From NCBI GenBank assembly GCA_035772405.1, contig JAYKKM010000263.1:4126001-4190000 (forward strand): a stretch of 64,000 nucleotides of DNA, given 5' to 3'. Under the pieces are notes generated by a model. That model saw only the letters and a list, made by a program, of their open reading frames with translations. It had not been told where the DNA came from and made no database searches. Shown piece by piece: positions 42,948 to 53,534 of the stretch. The position numbers were made by a program, and so were the translations under genes. Every line of letters begins with the position of its first letter. Within the stretch, counting starts at the first letter, position 1. This DNA is from Chrysogorgia sp. JL179-B06. Its lineage: Eukaryota > Cnidaria > Anthozoa > Scleralcyonacea > Chrysogorgiidae.

Positions 42948-42953
42948 CAAAAC
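42948..42953. repeat. Left target-site duplication CAAAAC
   Basis: CAAAAC directly precedes the left terminal inverted repeat and is repeated directly after the right one (53,529-53,534). A 6-bp duplication fits DDE integrase-type transposition. Confidence 0.85.
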
Positions 42954-43214
42954 TATGAGGGGTGATTACCTTCAATATTCATCTTCCAATTATGTCTTGA
43001 CGAAACCCAATTATGTTATGCAATACTGACATCGTTCAGTTCATAATTGCTATTGTATTGTGGAGCAATAAAGTCCGTCGCAGGACATCGTGCCAGTCCA
43101 TCATTTCAAAAATTGCTTTGCATATGACGTCTATCTTATTCCGACGCTTTCGGCAGAACATCATGTCAGTCGTGCATTTCCAAAATCACTTTCGCATATG
43201 ACGTCATGTTGGTT
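42954..43214 (+). repeat. Left terminal inverted repeat (261 bp)
   Basis: Matches 53,269-53,528 in inverse orientation nearly base for base; a visible difference is gcatatgacg here against the shorter gcaatgacg in the other copy. Both contain an identical spurious ORF beginning MLCNTDIVQF. It has paired cgtcatat/catatgacg motifs and probably holds transposase-binding sites and the promoter of the integrase gene. Confidence 0.93.
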
Positions 43215-43247
43215 ATCTCATCAGTGGATTTTCCCCGCAAAAGCAAT

Positions 43248-45870
43248 ATGGCGGCTGCCACGGGAACGAGATCCACGTATATATTGCGTCTTCAAAGCAG
43301 TATAAACCGGGTAATTCGCGTGCTTGAAGAAGAACACACTAATGCTGCTGCTATTGAACATGTTCTTTTCCGAGTTGACGGCTTATACGAAGCAATTTTA
43401 AGGTACAGTGACATAGTATCGCAGGGAGATCTCGTCTTAGATTCATTAAGAGAAGCTCGTGAACTGTTGGCAGTAGACATTAACCAACAACCTCTCCAAC
43501 ATGCAAGTAGTGCTTATCACACCGAACAACTGATTTCAGTAAGAAGGGGAAGACCACGCTACAATGTGAGAAAGGAACAACTTGAATTTTTTATAGAGCG
43601 TAGATTCAAGGTACCTGAAATGGCTCGTTTGCTCAATGTCAGTCTCAGCACCGTAGAAAGAAGACTTATAGAGTTTGGCCTTTCTCTGAGGAACAGCTAC
43701 TCGGAAATATCAGATGAAGACCTTGACAACGTTATACTGGAAATTCTTCATAACTTTCCGAACACGGGTTATAAAAGAATGAGAGGTTTTCTTTCGCAAC
43801 GTGGTTATACAGTGCAGCAAGATCGCACAAGAGAAAGTATGAGAAGAGTTGATCCTGAGGGAGTATTATTGCGTGGTTTACAAATGAGGGTGATTAATCG
43901 TCGACAATATCGCGTGGCTGGTCCGCAGTGTTTATGGCATATCGATGGAAATCATAAATTGATCAGGTTAGTGTAATTACAATATTACAAATGGTGAGCG
44001 GGTCTGCATGTCAATTTATCCTAGGGGGTCAGCCTATAAAATCTGGGAAAGGGGAAAAGCAAGATGGAAAATATCCTTAGGGGGAAAAACCAGATATGCA
44101 TGTTTTTTTTCAAGCAACCTCTCAATAGGGGGTTGCACATACAGGTATTAAATGGAATGGCCCAATGCAGTTGTCTTTTCCTGGTGTATAAATTTGACAA
44201 TTGATAAATGTCAATATTAATCAACAACAATCGATATCAATTAATTGATCCACGTAACCAATGAGCAATCAATGAAATTATTTATTTATTTTCTTTTATT
44301 TTATTTTACTATGGTTGCCCTTCAGCATTTTTATAAAAAGTACGTAATGAGCTGAATATATGCCATTTGCTAACATCAACAAGTTTTATAAAGCTCTGAA
44401 CCATATTACAAATTTTTCACTTTGATTGTAGATGGCGGATGGTAATACATGGTGCAATCGATGGCTACTCACGTCTTGTTGTTTTCCTTAAATGCAGCAA
44501 CAACAACAAGGCATCCACAGTACTCCAACAGTTTGAGGAAGCAGTAAGTGCATATGGAATTCCAAGCAGGGTACGATCAGACAAAGGAGGTGAAAATACC
44601 CTTGTTGCCATGTACATGCTGACTAACCGTGGTGTAAACAGGGGAAGTCACATTACAGGCAGGAGCGTTCATAATCAACGCATCGAAAGGCTTTGGCGGG
44701 ATGTGTTTGTAGCTTGCACATCTTTGTTTTACAATTTGTTCTATTTTATGGAGGAACATGGTTTGTTTGATCCTTCTGACGAAATCCATTTGTTTGCCCT
44801 ACATTATGTATTTATACCCAGAATAAACCGGAACTTGGAAACATTTAGAGAAAGCTACAATAAGGCACCCTTGAGCACAGAAGGAAACAAATCCCCTGAA
44901 CAACTCTGGCTGACTGGCATGTTTGCTATAAATTTTGGGGTGAATGAGGAACCAATGTTAATTAATCAGGTAAGGAAGGATAAGTTAAGAATTCAAAAAT
45001 AATCAGCTGCCTCAGTGTAACAAAAGGGAAATATTATCAATATATCTTTTTTGAAAATATATTAGCCAGCCAGACCATTATTGCTCCAATAGCTGTTATT
45101 TACAGTAAAGCTTATTGAGGGGGCTAATGCATATTTGAGTTTACAAGAGAGTGGTGATAATAAATGAATAAAAACATACAGGTGTACTCTGAGGAAACAG
45201 CTGGATACCATACAATACCAGTTGTTTCCTAAGCATTCAGCAGCAGCCATAAACAAGGTGTATTGGAGACAGAAAACCAGACAATGGTTTACACAGTTCC
45301 AAGCTGCAGATGTAAGACACTTGATCATATTTAAAGTGGAAAGTGTTTTCTAACACATTGCAGGTCAAGTGTAGCACATTTTGTTGTTGCTTCTGCTACC
45401 CATTCCCCTTTATATTACATTTACAGTACAGTACTGTAGTTATCAAATGTTTGTTATGCTATTTCAACATACAATTCAAACTACATTAGTACATTAGTAT
45501 TACTAGTGGTAAATTTTGTATATGTAACATATAGTTTCAAAAGATAATTTGTATGCACAGCATTGTGCAGTATACTATATGTTCACTGTAGCAGTATATC
45601 AGTAAAAGCCTGGAACATAATTTTAGTTTGACAAAGATTTACCTGTACTTTTTTTAGGAGATAAATTTGTATGGAGTTGATTGGAATACAATTGATGTTT
45701 CACCTGATGAAACTCAAAGCAACATTGTAGAAGTCCCAGAAACAGCACAACCCATGCAGGAAAATGGCCAAGTTGGGTTAAACAGAGCTATAAATCCTTT
45801 GAGAGAGAGTGATTATCATGGTATAGATATCTATATAGAAACATTACAATATATCTGGAACAGGATATGA
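43248..45870 (+). CDS. Spliced DDE integrase/transposase (489 aa), three exons
   Basis: Exons 43,248-43,966, 44,432-44,969 and 45,658-45,870; introns GT-AG (CAG/GTTAGT, GTAG/; CAG/GTAAGG, TTAG/). Total 1,470 nt, in frame. The start MAAATG in an aatATGg context was chosen because the frame upstream enters the TIR. Order: N-terminal helical region; a helix-turn-helix ([32 protein letters not shown], about residues 108-155); a second small helical block ([18 protein letters not shown]); then an rve-type catalytic core with Asp233 ([12 protein letters not shown], split by intron 1), Asp290 ([10 protein letters not shown]) and Glu325 (HNQRIERLW), a DD(34-35)E spacing. The tail has [10 protein letters not shown] and [14 protein letters not shown]. 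It would cut and join the transposon ends. Confidence 0.88.
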
Positions 45871-46136
45871 GCAGGTTTGATATACATGCAAAACAGAAAA
45901 AAACTTGGTGTGAAATAATTCATTTTTTTGTTAAAGCCACTTGTTGAATTCACAATCCTAGTTCTCTGTGCAATGTAAACAACATAAACCATATAATGTA
46001 CTGTACTTTAAAAATAAATATCAACTGAAGAACTAAAATAAAATAATATATATGCTGTATATATATGCTGTATATAACATAATTGTAAATACAGGTATTG
46101 TTTTTACACGTACAGTAGCATCGACAGTCCAGGTAT

Positions 46137-49100
46137 TCAGATTTCCGAAAACCCTTTGTTTCCAAATCTTAGGGCCATGTCCATTTTTTCTTTGAATTGA
46201 GCATACTCACCATACATTACAGGAAGAGTAATTGTGTTGAAGCATGTTTTTGAGAAAGGCATGGTCAACTGCTCTTCATCAGAAGGAAACCTGACCACCA
46301 GCTGTTCTGCTTCTGTGGGCAATACTTCTACTCCTGTCCAAAAGCAGACCAAGTCCTTAAGGGAAACATCTAAAATATTTGAAGGAACATATGGAAACAA
46401 AGGTTCTAATTAAACACAAGTAATGGATGAGGTACATTATAATATCCAGAATTACATGTATCCAACAACAGTCTTAGCAGCTGAAGGAGATGACTGGATA
46501 ATTCTTCTGGATAATTCTTGATATCATGCATAAGTCAAAACCAATAATTGTTTATTATTAAAATACTTGTACATCAATGTGCATTTAGATATTTAATTGA
46601 CATCAACAGCATTCAATAATTCACACTATTTGGCAAAAATGACTACATCTCTGTGTAATCTGCTGGACAATGAGAATATTTTTTAATTGGAATATTTTTT
46701 ACACATGTAGTTGTGATAATATAATTTGTACTGTACCTGTTGATCGTCCTTCTGCTACATCAGAAATATATCTTGTGAAGAAACCAGCTATCTTTAGTTC
46801 GTGATCTGATTCAGCCTCCCAATTCAACATTCTGTTGATAGTATTTGGTAGTATAATTCGGTCATTTTCGCGTGGAAAGAAGGCATATGCAGTAATAGGG
46901 TGGCGTTTTAGGAAGCTTATTAGTGAAACTTTTTCAAGACCCTGTGCAATGTCATCCAAAATATGCTTTCTCCTTTCAAATACATTATACCATATCAGAT
47001 TTTGCATTGTAATCTTTACATTGTTGTCTGTCAGCAGAGGTAGGCCTGCTTCGAGTAGATATGGCATTAAAGTATCCTTCTGATTTCCAGTGACATGGCA
47101 ACTATCAATCTAAAAGAACATAAAAAGTAGAAATAATCAAAACAAATGAATGGGTTTAAAATGGGAATGCCTGGAGTGCACATTGTTTACTGCAAGCATG
47201 CTCTTTCTGCAAGCATGCTCATATTATATGCAACAGCTTTTTTTCAACAAAGGAAATGGATATTTGAGACTGGATTCAGGCATGAATAAGGTATTACAGT
47301 ACATGTAGTTATTTAAAATGCACAGAACTACTGTTGTATAAGTATTTACCATTTTACCTCATGAAGGACTGTACGAAGCTCATAATCAGGGATGTCTTCA
47401 ATACATAATGGAAGTGGATCATTATCAACATCCTCAACTGTCCAATAGTGGATTACAGAAGGCGACAGACCATAGTATGCTGGACCACCATGTAGAATGG
47501 AATGTGCCATTATTTTTCCAATGGTAATGTAAAGACCAGCCTGTTTCATGAGATTATTAACAACTGGGAGTTTGTGATCTTTGCTTCCTTCAAAGATCAT
47601 CACCTTTCCATGGCCAGAATTTGTTATACCATTTTCCACCAGCTGTAGAGCAAGAGTGAAGAACTCTCTGACTGGACCAGGACCTACCCCAGCTTCTGAT
47701 TCAAACCTGACTCTTGGTTTTGCTTGTAGTTTAAATTTTGGGGATTTATACAAAGCGAGAATATCACTTTCAAAATCCTCTTGAAAGCGGTTAACATAGA
47801 TGCGCTGTGGTGCTTTATCTGTTGCCTTGTTTTGTTCCCTAAATATGTGTAATCCCTCCTGCGGAGTGACAGGTTGCAAATCATCTATGAAAACAGAATG
47901 AAAAATATTCTTATTGCAAATCATAACCCATAACATATCTTTAAAACTACTTGCTTTTTATTTACATACAGCACCACCTACTACAATACATGGTAAAAGT
48001 CAGACATTACAGCAACACAATGATTAAAAGACATTGTGCACTGAAAAATCATGTGGCCCACCTTTTTGTTTTGTTTGCTGTTAGGGGCTATTTTTTTAAA
48101 TCCTGAAAGTAATAAATACCACCCAACCCCCACAATTCCCAACAGTGGTATCTGCCTTTGGCTACTACTTTCTTGTTGTAAGATATGTTAACAAATTTAC
48201 TGCATGTGGAAATATCCTTCTTTATTCCTCTTTATTTACCACATTCACCTTATTTATTCTATAAGGCCAAGAAAAAAATACCTGGGTTTCCTATTTCATA
48301 TTGAAAAAAAATTAGGTAGAGTAGGTCGGTTTTTCTTTTCCCCCCCCCCCCCCCTTTTTTTCCAAACATTGCATGGACGAACAATAGGTTTTACCAAACC
48401 ACGCTGATCTTGAGGTTGCTGCCTGCCTGGATCGACAGCCATGTTTACTATACCAGGATGCAAATTAAGCTGCAACTCGTACCAATGCTTTTCAAAATTT
48501 CAATAAGATTAGGGTTGGTATTTTACTGGCCAAAAGCTAGGTAGGGTCGAGAAACCGGAAACCACTATTGCAACTTTGACTGTTTTATACTTTAGTTTCC
48601 TTTGAAAGCAATCACTTCATGCATTAAACAGTGGAATGCACTATTTTATAATAATACATGTACATACTGTACTATTATAAAACATGGCATGATTGTGTTG
48701 GTTGTTTCAGACTGTAATTTCATAGAAAAGAGATTGGACATGCTTGATTTTCTTGCTTTACTCTGGTAAACATTTGCTCTAAAAACCTATGACCAGTGTC
48801 ACAATGCATATATATCCTCTGCTTATACAGAAAGCCAGTACTTTTGAAGAGGCAGTATTTCAGCATACTATGGTATACTAATTTGGATAGAACCGAACTG
48901 TACATCCTGAGCTATGTTTGAGTGTCCAAAAAAAAACATATTTGAATGTACAATTTATCATGGAAAGCAGGGTTGTATTCATACTTCAGTTTAATTTAAT
49001 TTATCAAACATTTAGAAAATAAGAAAAGGGAATTACATGTAGAGGTATACGACTGGCAAACTCTAGCAGTTACAGGTACATGTACTTTCTAAATGATTAC

Positions 49101-52100
49101 AACCTACTTTTGTAATTTTATATTTTAAAGCTTTTGTTTACTTAATGAGTTCAACACTCTACTTATTCAAGTGAGCTTCTACTTTCAAAGTTAAAGAAAG
49201 CTATCTTGCATAATTACCAGCTATGACAATGCTACCATCATCAGCAGAAGATGATGCTGCACAAGAAGAGGAGCTTGTTGCAGATGATGATGCTGTACTT
49301 GAACCACTTGGTCTAATGTGGCCAATTCTAAATTGTCTTGTATCACTCAAAAAAGTATCAAGAAGCAACTCATCATCACCTATAAAGTTGCATTAGAAAG
49401 ATCAGACATACATGTACAGTACTATACATATAATAATATGTTTGATCATTGTTTCTTTCCGAATATTTAACAAGTGGGGGGCAGCACAGGCGTCAGGCAA
49501 ATATAAATTTATAGCGGGCGGGGGAGGGCAAAAGCACCCTGATGGCCCAATATACACGTATATCGTCCAACCATAAGCCCAATCTCGTATCCAGGCTATT
49601 TTCTCCATTCTTCCCCTTGCTGGAAAAATACCAGGGCTTCAGATTTTTAATGAGCATTGTTATTTTAACTTAGGAAGGGATAAGTGAGGTGTTATGGCAA
49701 ATTTGTTAAACTGACAGAAGAATCATGCTGATTTTACAAATGAAAAAGTAAATTTAATATAATTAAAAATTTGCTAGATTTTAGCAGATCACATGACCAG
49801 TCTGTACCAGGGTATTTTCCTAGCTAGGGAAAGAGCGGAGAAAATGGCCTGGGTATGAGGTTGCCATAAGCCTCTCCGAAAATAGCCTTCCAGGATATAC
49901 AGGAAAACCCAAATAATTAGTCCTATGAAAAAAGAATAACCCTAGGGCCTATTATTGGAAATGTATGTTACAATGGCATGATACAGTATATAGTATAAAA
50001 TAGTGACTTTGTGCGGTGACAAATTTAAATATCGCTTTATAAAACGTACAAACCATGGTGATTGGTAATAAGTTCAGAATGTCCTGAAAACTAAACTGCT
50101 TATTTATAAACACATTTACCAAAATCTAATAATGGCGTAATGTTGGAGCAAAGGGTGAGAAAAAGAAATGAGTTCTTAGAAGAACTGTTTAAAGATTTGA
50201 GAAATAAATAGGCTTAAAATAAAAATTTATTTCTCAAATCTTTAAACAGTTCTTCTAAGAACTCATTTATTTTTCTCACCCTTTGCTCCAACATCACGCC
50301 ATTATTAGATTTTGGTAAATGTGTTTATAAATTTAAGCAGTTTTTCAGAACGTTCTGAACTAATTACCAATGACCATGGTTAGTACATTTTAGAAAGCGA
50401 TATATACTACAGACCTGGAAATAGTGGTGGATCCTGGGATCCTCGTTCTGAGAAAATATTTTACAACACATGTGGCCTGTGGTCACTGGGCAGTGCCGCA
50501 GTGGGCCTGTGGCTGTACCGTAGTACCACTGACAGTAGCCTATAGGTGTAGCAGTGTTGTAGGTTAGTCTGTTAGTGACAGTCTGCGTAGCTACACAAGT
50601 ACACAACTGGCTAAACTCTAAAGATAAAAGATTATTCAATTCAATGGATTTTGCTACAGTGCTACTAGCAAATTGCTAGTATTATTAGTCCTGTGAAACA
50701 TACAGTAGTGTGACCACCATGTTTTTGAAGAAATTATTTGGTCCTTATAGCATAGAATCCAAGAAAGGTTGGAATTATTTCCAGGTCTGATATACTATAC
50801 TGTACATGTACTCACTGGAATCACTATTGGTGTTTACAAGAAGCTGCAAGGCAGCATCGTCAACATTTCCCTCACAAGCTGTGAGCGTAGACAATACTTT
50901 TTGCTTTGGAAGTATGGGAAACATGTCGTAAAGGACATCAGCTGTATTGGATACCTAAAGGCACAGTAATAATTATAAATAGTAAAACCATTTGGCTTTT
51001 ACAACAAAAGAACTGTCTTAGGCTAGGGATTACAGGAAGATGTACAAAGGGTAAGGATTGAAATGCACCAATTCCTACATTTCAGGTGGCAATAAATTAA
51101 ATCACTTAATAATTACCATAGTGGCTTCACTTTCAGGAACTTGTTCTGGCTCTTTAGGCCTGTGATTAAAAAGAAATTGATATATAAAAAGCATGTCATG
51201 ACCATAACTAGACTCCATAACTTTCACAAAAATAAGAAAGGCAAGCAAAACCTGCCATAAATACACTAAGGATAAACATACCAGTACATGTAAAAGTAGC
51301 AAAATTTTGCTTAATCAGATTTTGTTTTCATTTTTGCATGAATAGAATAAGTGCCTTTCGGCAATGCCAAAACTAAAGCCACCCCTTGAAGGGTAGTGTC
51401 CCCCAACTTTACAAAGTTTCCTACATGTACATGACTTTCATTATGGAGTCTGGTTATGGTCAGGCCTTGCTTTTTGCCTCTAATAGGTTGTGCCTAGTAT
51501 GGGATATCTCTACACACACACAGTATTTGAGAAAACCTTACAAAATACTATTATTATAAAATTAAATATACAATTTCATACTGACATTACTACAATTTCA
51601 TACTGACACATCAAAGTGAAATATATAATAATAAATCCACCACTATAAAGTATATTTACATAATAATAAGCCAATAAGGGATTAGGAAGTGTGAAGAAAT
51701 ATATAGAAAAGGTAAAGCAAAATTAGGAAAAATGCTAGGAGTTACAACAATGGGATGGGAAGAGTTAATACAAAAAAATTGTTTACAGATACAGTATAAT
51801 AATAATAAAAACCTTTACAGATATAATAACAAAAACCTTACTTACTTTGAACAAATGCTGGTATGCTCCTTAATTTGTGTCAGTGCAATTTGTTGCCCAC
51901 AGTTTAAACAAGCAACTGTTGGAGCTTCTGCATAAGAACTGGCACTCTAAAACAGAATTAAATAAAGATATGACCATCATCATAATGTACATGTAACAGT
52001 ATTATGAACTAAGAAGTTAATGAGATGCATAATACTAGTAAACAATAACACAACACTTGTATTGTTGTGCGAGCACTAATATATAAGAATTTGAGCATTT

Positions 52101-53221
52101 TTATATTGTTTATATAATTTATTTTATATTCAGTACTTATTTATAGTATTTTATCATAGGGTCATCATTTAGTGGTGTACAACAACCATTTTCTCTCTGA
52201 CACTTAAATAAAATCCATCTTATTATTTTTCCAGACCGAGAAAAGGCAAACCAATAATTGAGGAGCTAGCTACTGTAGGTCACTCCCAAATATTCTGTGG
52301 TAGGCTAATTTATACCACTTTGAGTGCATCAACACATTTAAAAAATTTCCCAAAAATATTGCCAATCAGTAATCACCATCATGGGGATTAAACACACACT
52401 ATTATAAATACCTATCCTCACCCTATAGGGTACAGGGATTATGACAATTTACAAATGAATATCAAGTAAAAACAATATTGAAACACTACCTGAATAGGAG
52501 AAGATATTTCTGACATATCTAGATTTCTTTGTGCCGGTCTCACATATGCCAAAGCTTGACCAAGTCCAGAATTATCACGTAAGAATGCCACACTGTATCC
52601 AGCTGGTGGGGGAGATATTAAAACTAGCGACTGGACATTGACGCCACTTCTCAAGATTTCAAAACCCCCACCGTTCACTAGTTTTGGAAACATTTCCTCC
52701 AATTTCGCTTTAAACTGGAATGGATTATCTTTCCAACCGAAGACTATTTTCTTTCGACCCAGATTAGCCAACTGCAGTTGGAACTTCACAGCACGAGAAG
52801 GCACAACAGTAGTAGAAATGTCAGCGAGACAAAAAATCTCGTGAGTCCAAGTCTCTTTGACTTTATAATTTCGGTTATTATTTCCTCTTGGTCGTTTTGG
52901 TGGGTTTGGTCCATTGTTTTGGTTGTAAGGACTGAACAAGGAGCGAAAGTTGTCAAGTATAGTTTGCTTGTTTTGACCTCTGGAACCTTGGCCAACCGAA
53001 CTTTCAGGTGCGTTAGAATTGGAACTAGTGTTGTTTATACGTTGTGTTTGACTCCTGGAATTACTCCCCACTGTTTCACTTTGCAGTCTTTGTTCATCAT
53101 TTCTACTTGGTTCAGGATTATTTTCACTATTATTATCGAGTATCCCTACAACTTCTCGCAAGAGTGAGACGGCCCTTGAAAAACGTACATTCGGTTCTGT
53201 TGGCTCCTTTCCATCCGCCAT
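46137..53221 (-). CDS. Spliced HECT E3 ubiquitin ligase with UBZ-like and CUE domains (781 aa), eight exons
   Basis: Exons (5' to 3' on minus): 53,221-52,490, 51,946-51,846, 51,159-51,117, 50,954-50,816, 49,379-49,218, 47,884-47,358, 47,109-46,737, 46,405-46,137. All introns are GT-AG, all phases join, total 2,346 nt with stop. Residues 1-110 are low complexity. About 120-235 form a globular domain starting ETWTHEIFCLAD, unnamed to me. Cys257, Cys260, His272 and Cys276 (CLNCG...HTSIC) form a UBZ-like finger. Residues 297-332 are a CUE domain (DMFPILP...EGNVDDAALQLL). A Ser-rich linker precedes the HECT domain (393-781), with GVGPGPVREFFTLAL and catalytic Cys747 in SKTCFNTITLP. It should accept ubiquitin from E2 and pass it to substrates. 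The start MADGK was preferred to one 39 bases upstream. Confidence 0.87.
50031..50402. repeat. 372-bp foldback element in a HECT intron
   Basis: Arms 50,031-50,208 and 50,225-50,402 are near-perfect inverted copies (atcgcttt...gagaaataa), separated by only ~16 bases. The intron transcript could form a ~178-bp hairpin. It sits in the intron between the CUE exon and the Ser-rich exon of the transposon's HECT gene and does not touch splice sites. Confidence 0.88.
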
Positions 53222-53268
53222 ATTGTTTGTTTGCGCGCCAAGGCGCGCGCGAATTTCCAAGTGCTCCC

Positions 53269-53528
53269 AACCAACATGACGTCATTGCGAAAGTGATTTT
53301 GGAAATGCACGACTGACATGATGTTCTGCCGAAAGCGTCGGAATAAGATAGACGTCATATGCAAAGCAATTTTTGAAATGATGGACTGGCATGATGTCCT
53401 GCGACGGACTTTATTGCTCCACAATACAATAGCAATTATGAACTGAACGATGTCAGTATTGCATAACATAATTGGGTTTCGTCAAGACATAATTGGAAGA
53501 TGAATATTGAAGGTAATCACCCCTCATA
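53269..53528 (-). repeat. Right terminal inverted repeat (260 bp)
   Basis: Inverse copy of 42,954-43,214. Followed directly by the target duplication CAAAAC (53,529-53,534). It probably drives the HECT gene, whose start codon lies 48 bases inside. Confidence 0.93.
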
Positions 53529-53534
53529 CAAAAC
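53529..53534. repeat. Right target-site duplication CAAAAC
   Basis: Partner of 42,948-42,953; marks the exact right edge of the 10.6-kb transposon. Confidence 0.85.

Follow-up and report, generated by a model that had tools for sequence, protein, structure and literature searches.

A recently active DNA transposon with a convergent HECT ubiquitin ligase gene in Chrysogorgia sp. JL179-B06

The stretch of Chrysogorgia sp. JL179-B06 DNA analysed here (64,000 nucleotides, positions 4126001-4190000 of contig C263; hereafter the window) contains a DNA transposon of 10,575 bp at positions 42954-53528 that carries a transposase gene and a gene for a HECT ubiquitin ligase. The element is bounded by terminal inverted repeats (TIRs), which were identified by self-comparison and by searching the genome (a 781-Mb assembly of 522 contigs). 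The left TIR begins with TATGAGGGG and covers about 260 bp on the plus strand (42954-43213), and the right TIR covers about 260 bp on the minus strand (53269-53528). Between 42954-43196 and 53286-53528 the arms are identical at 242 of 243 positions, with one mismatch, and the inverted repeat runs on to about 260 bp, the right arm matching 261 bases of the left arm in the genome search. Comparison of the flanks revealed the 6-bp target-site duplication (TSD) CAAAAC at 42948-42953 and at 53529-53534, and a site with a single copy of it was found empty elsewhere. The TIR length and the 6-bp duplication proposed by an earlier sequence-only reading were both borne out. The two genes are convergent, with the transposase on the plus strand and the HECT gene on the minus strand, and both begin near the inverted ends. 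Their introns were inferred from the reading frame, GT-AG sites and similarity to a Paramuricea protein (P0001). Ten further open reading frames (ORFs) of 67-161 aa in the element, of 44 listed, matched no Pfam family above the cut-off.

The transposase gene consists of three exons. Exon 1 (43248-43966) encodes the N-terminal part up to the first catalytic residue, Asp233, and is intact in all four full-length copies described below. Exon 2 (44432-44969), which is supported by frame joining, Pfam and the genome search, contributes Asp290 and Glu325, and exon 3 (45658-45870), placed by frame joining, ends with the stop codon. Joined in frame they encode 489 aa with D233, D290 and E325 in place, confirming the integrase gene as it had first been proposed. 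An extra exon at 45182-45310 was rejected because it breaks the frame, and the three-exon model was retained. In Pfam, the protein matched the rva_4 integrase core with an E-value of 6.8e-88; we take the rva_4 transposases to be those of IS3EU. Among the Pfam matches with E-values up to 0.1 only the rva_4/rve core was present, and no zinc-binding N-terminal integrase (HHCC) domain was found. The search of PDB sequences returned only integrase or Pol polyprotein chains, at E-values of 0.028-0.074. The protein search found 3,206 relatives at an E-value of 1e-10 or better, and the 120 that were listed included proteins of cnidarians, sponges, molluscs, a priapulid, hemichordates and fishes.

The HECT gene was modelled with eight exons on the minus strand. 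Exon 1 (52490-53221) encodes an unnamed conserved N-terminal domain that was also recognised in homologues and in the genome search. Exon 2 (51846-51946) contains a C-C-H-C knuckle, of which the residues C257, C260 and H272 are invariant in an alignment of five sequences, and is followed by exon 3 (51117-51159). Exon 4 (50816-50954), with a provisional donor site, encodes a CUE-like stretch that scores 17.4 bits against a Pfam cut-off of 21.1; the homologues P0001 and P0002 are likewise below the cut-off. Exon 5 (49218-49379) encodes a Ser-rich linker. Exon 6 (47358-47884) with the N-lobe and exon 7 (46737-47109) belong to the HECT domain according to Pfam, and exon 8 (46137-46369), supported by alignment, encodes the C-lobe with Cys735 and the stop. 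The joined exons encode a protein of 769 aa in which the HECT domain PF00632 is found at residues 495-767, above the Pfam cut-off (E-value 3.4e-10). Cys735 lies within TCFNTITLP and is, as we take from general knowledge of the HECT family, the catalytic cysteine. The modelled HECT gene joins in frame across its predicted introns as previously claimed, but the earlier figures of 781 aa and Cys747 were not reproduced, the alternative exon-4 donors giving proteins of 774 or 766 aa. This difference in length leaves the earlier claim unaffected.

Among 5.8 billion proteins, homologues of the HECT protein numbered four when searched with the single sequence (E-value up to 0.001, 7,988 candidates scored) and seven when searched with a profile (E-value up to 1e-5, 7,991 candidates scored). 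Four of the seven are named, and all four are cnidarian; P0001 is 47% identical over 81% of the query. The PDB sequence search found UBR5 at an E-value of 0.0039, and structure predictions for exon 1 and for the Acropora homologue failed, at mean pLDDT values of 40.0 and 40.7. Within HECT intron 4 a foldback of about 380 bp is nested (50026-50406), with arms of 108 and 65 nt that are 98 and 88% complementary. Each of the four full copies has this stretch, at a length of 380-381 bp.

The genome-wide search with the TIR gave 44 matches. They included three further full-length copies of the element, on C94 (10,552 bp, TSD CGTTTG), C37 (10,519 bp, TSD TCGACG) and C56 (10,968 bp, TSD CGGATT). All four full copies have a perfect 6-bp TSD, each a different one. 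Identity to the window copy over the aligned bases is 99.80% for C94, 99.76% for C37 and 98.40% for C56. The target as predicted before insertion, 400 bp with one CAAAAC, was found uninterrupted on C363 with 100% identity and on C95, C11, C391 and C113 with 95-98%; a further alignment elsewhere on C11 spans 394 of the 400 bp, and on C21 the target is split into two parts. Since this empty target recurs at several places in the genome, the window element sits in multicopy sequence. The C37 copy had inserted into a 21-bp tandem array, and the register of the array is unbroken once the element and one TSD are left out. The element is recently active and mobile and is part of a mobile family, so that the recent movement and the family that the sequence-only reading had predicted were both found in the same assembly.

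Apart from the full copies, 14 further TIR loci were examined, in a tally that leaves out the matches on C519, C374, C26, C262 and C448. Nine of these have a perfect 6-bp TSD, two have a TSD with five of six positions matching, one has none, one has a truncated end and one has a single end. Among the 13 two-ended short relatives, 11 have left-end sequence of the element at both ends, reaching past the 260-bp TIR (on C489, for example, positions 1-509 and 435-1); on C400 and C121 this sequence breaks off at 204 bp at one end. The two-ended short relatives are foldback-like derivatives of one element end. In the C56 copy, the equivalent of window positions 47590-47665 differs from the three other copies at nine of 76 bp, compared with an average of 1.6% for C56; gene conversion from another family is a possible source of this patch. 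Along the element the observed/expected ratio of CpG is U-shaped, with about 1.1-1.2 at both ends, 0-0.5 at 44754-52553 and 0.9 in the flanks. This profile looks like the footprint of a germline gene-body methylation that would spare both start regions. No CpG excess was seen among the private changes of the copies.

The association of the two genes was analysed across the genome within a distance of 16 kb, where convergent means a HECT match downstream of the transposase on the opposite strand. With transposase exon 2 as the query, the best 150 of 1,240 candidates were scored. For the ligase, the best 150 of 248 candidates were scored with HECT exon 1 (the N-domain) and the best 150 of 254 with the C-lobe of a compact form of the gene. 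The N-domain query gave a convergent match at 44 of the 150 transposases, and another orientation was nearest on the same strand in two cases and divergently in none. With the compact C-lobe, a convergent match within 2.6 kb was observed at 28 of the same 150 transposases (same strand nearest 1, divergent 2). When any match by either query within 16 kb was counted, 70 of the 150 transposases had a convergent HECT gene (44 plus 28, with 2 found by both), and divergent and same-strand matches numbered 2 and 3. Counting only the nearest match in the merged HECT list gave 69 convergent, 1 divergent and 1 same-strand. A uniform spread would lead to 0.87 matches by chance for each query and 1.72 for both together, in any orientation. 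The pairing of transposase and HECT, originally read from the window alone, is thus repeated beside many related transposases.

The outcome that would have refuted the earlier reading, integrase copies never accompanied by a HECT gene, did not occur. The transposase loci ranked 5-14 all show a convergent HECT match (10 of 10), some as fragments only. C359 has just short fragments matching the N-domain and does not count among the 44 paired transposases, and on C190 and C241 the HECT core is barely or not at all recognisable. At seven of the ten loci both ends and a perfect 6-bp TSD enclose both genes. These related elements measure 12,747 bp (C495), 12,824 bp (C271), 11,017 bp (C264), 10,166 bp (C241), 7,550 bp (C11), 7,625 bp (C208) and 5,460 bp (C190), and fall into three groups by their end sequence, TATGGAGG, TATGAAGG and TATGAGG. 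The loci on C207, C404 and C359 yielded the left end alone.

Beside more diverged transposases this position is occupied by the compact HECT form. The transposase on C3, which is 55% identical in exon 2, had no adjoining N-domain match but a convergent HECT gene downstream. The C-terminal piece of this compact gene matches PF00632 (E-value 2.4e-6), and its other piece has no Pfam match. One in-frame stop lies between the two pieces, and the matches on C160, C18 and C80 are in open frames of 444-467 aa. At five places in the genome an N-domain match is followed by a compact C-lobe match on the same strand, and the compact HECT was for this reason rejected as a wholly separate type. Because of these five joined places and the two transposases that match both queries, the long and compact forms are probably one graded spectrum. 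Judged from these sequences, the transposase-HECT pairing is old and common, and we have hardly any doubt that the element and the pairing are real.

To what extent the HECT gene is maintained can be seen in the families of C263, C495, C208 and C241, in which the synonymous differences are saturated (pS 0.71-0.87). Their amino-acid identity is 60-72% in transposase exon 2 and 45-58% in the HECT N-domain, which is without stops. The TCF motif with the cysteine is kept on C208, C264 and C11; at these three loci the C-lobe match extends as far as the Cys. Since many relatives in the same genome carry a HECT gene in the same tail-to-tail position, the ligase is probably a functional component of the transposon, and we regard it as quite likely that it is a selected one.

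On balance, we favour the explanation that the element is a recently active two-gene IS3EU/GingerRoot transposon with a long-associated HECT E3 ligase that acts in trans. The DDE transposase would cut at the TATGAGG...CCTCATA ends and insert by a 6-bp staggered joining. The ligase, which has long accompanied this transposon lineage, may select its target with the N-terminal domain, including the C-C-H-C and CUE-like parts, and its HECT domain would pass ubiquitin to the target through Cys735. The likeliest target would be a host factor that keeps the element silent or restrains its transposition; we prefer host factors to the transposase as the substrate, but only tentatively. A further-reaching version, in which HECT is the core tail-to-tail second gene of a large animal IS3EU lineage, ranging from long spliced to compact forms with an unrecognised N-domain and disarming the host control of transposition via ubiquitin, is conceivable but rather doubtful.

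The ligase might instead ubiquitinate its own transposase, leading to its turnover or its release from the ends, and in this way limit damage or aid the disassembly of the complex. Such a matched pair would agree with the fixed convergent arrangement of a single ligase match beside a transposase, and the near-identical ends may drive both genes, since both start close to them. However, transposase exon 2 is better conserved between families than the HECT N-domain, in the ranges given above, and the N-domain of the window was matched at only two of the 28 transposases that have a compact HECT; the part that would choose the target is therefore not tightly kept. We consider it unlikely that the transposase is the substrate.

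Several observations weigh against a ligase that the element depends on, and they would also be expected if HECT were a cargo without a role in transposition, captured early, spread by hitch-hiking and now decaying. In three of the four near-identical full copies the HECT gene is broken, which speaks against a need for it at each copy, whereas none of them has lost the open frame of the transposase. The lesions differ: a premature stop codon along with a 4-bp net insertion on C94, a changed exon-7 acceptor on C37 and a loss of 254 bp in exon 7 on C56. Between the window copy and C56, synonymous and non-synonymous changes number 5 and 5 in the transposase (pN/pS 0.27) and 9.8 and 18.2 in the HECT gene (pN/pS 0.54). 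The part of the HECT core that was compared is only 22-36% identical in three families, and two of the three comparisons contain stops, attributable perhaps to introns or to decay. Finally, 80 of the 150 scored transposases showed no convergent HECT match by either query; these may have a HECT form undetected by both queries, may have a decayed gene or may lack one. The cargo explanation is opposed by the convergent match at 70 of the 150 transposases, diverged ones included, by the N-domain that is kept despite saturated synonymous change and by the conserved TCF motif. Four copies are too few for the comparison of 0/4 with 3/4 broken genes (P about 0.07, one-sided), which fits a product working in trans as well as a weak need for it and cannot decide between them. 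We therefore regard a mere cargo as improbable, slightly more so than a ligase directed at the transposase. Nothing was found in favour of a host gene cluster or of an artefact of the assembly; both are refuted by the distinct TSDs at four places, the exact empty sites and the short TIR-bearing derivatives, and their probability is close to nil. The sequence-only reading, in which the ligase modifies host proteins or its own integrase to control transposition, thus stands for mobility and pairing; the role it proposed stays putative, HECT is broken in most full copies and the element fits a superfamily that is already known.

Polinton/Maverick elements carry DNA polymerase B and capsid genes. 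The TSD length alone would fit them, but they were ruled out for this element of 10.6 kb, where the ten further ORFs match no Pfam family above the cut-off. Its ends, the 6-bp TSD and the transposase without a detected N-terminal zinc domain fit the IS3EU/GingerRoot kind, which according to excerpts of PMC10045372 has TA..TA termini and usually a 6-bp TSD. The four full copies share this feature with their termini TATGAGG...CCTCATA, and the perfect 6-bp TSD is present in all of them and at seven of the ten related loci, one end having been found at the remaining three. Ginger1 and Ginger2, described in the same excerpts with TSDs of 4 bp and 4-5 bp, are ruled out by the 6-bp TSD. The difference lies in the convergent HECT ligase gene. 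The main text of PMC10045372 contains neither 'HECT' nor 'ubiquitin', neither 'HECT' nor 'IS3EU' was found in PMC4255032, and PMC6027436 (a mimivirus HECT-domain protein), PMC8195603 and PMC9926710 are unrelated in the portions available. As far as the open-access literature shows, with Repbase and subscription journals outside that search, a HECT gene in the second-gene slot of IS3EU is undescribed. The HECT-like proteins of Paramuricea clavata, Porites lobata and Acropora cervicornis have the same N-terminal domain, with 33-47% identity over 34-81% of the query. They are listed as ordinary proteins, and of the four homologues Pfam recognises a HECT domain only in the Acropora one. The pairing also cautions that some of the HECT-like genes annotated in cnidarians may belong to transposons. 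To our knowledge, few mobile elements bring their own protein-modifying enzyme. A close parallel is found in fungal IS3EU elements described with a TET/JBP gene. In the sections of PMC12730594 available, these have a 6-bp TSD and TAYGG..CCRTA ends, and along with TET/JBP they carry a gene for an alpha-kinase, oriented against the transposase. They share with the Chrysogorgia element the 6-bp TSD and a gene for a protein-modifying enzyme opposite to the transposase, but their hosts are fungi, and an alpha-kinase (plus TET/JBP) takes the place of the ubiquitin ligase. The old and repeated pairing of transposase and HECT in one genome, including copies without a working HECT, offers a natural comparison set in which one can ask whether ubiquitin is a battleground between transposon and host, much as the TET/JBP genes of the fungal elements are linked by the author, in those sections of PMC12730594, to an escape from methylation-based silencing.

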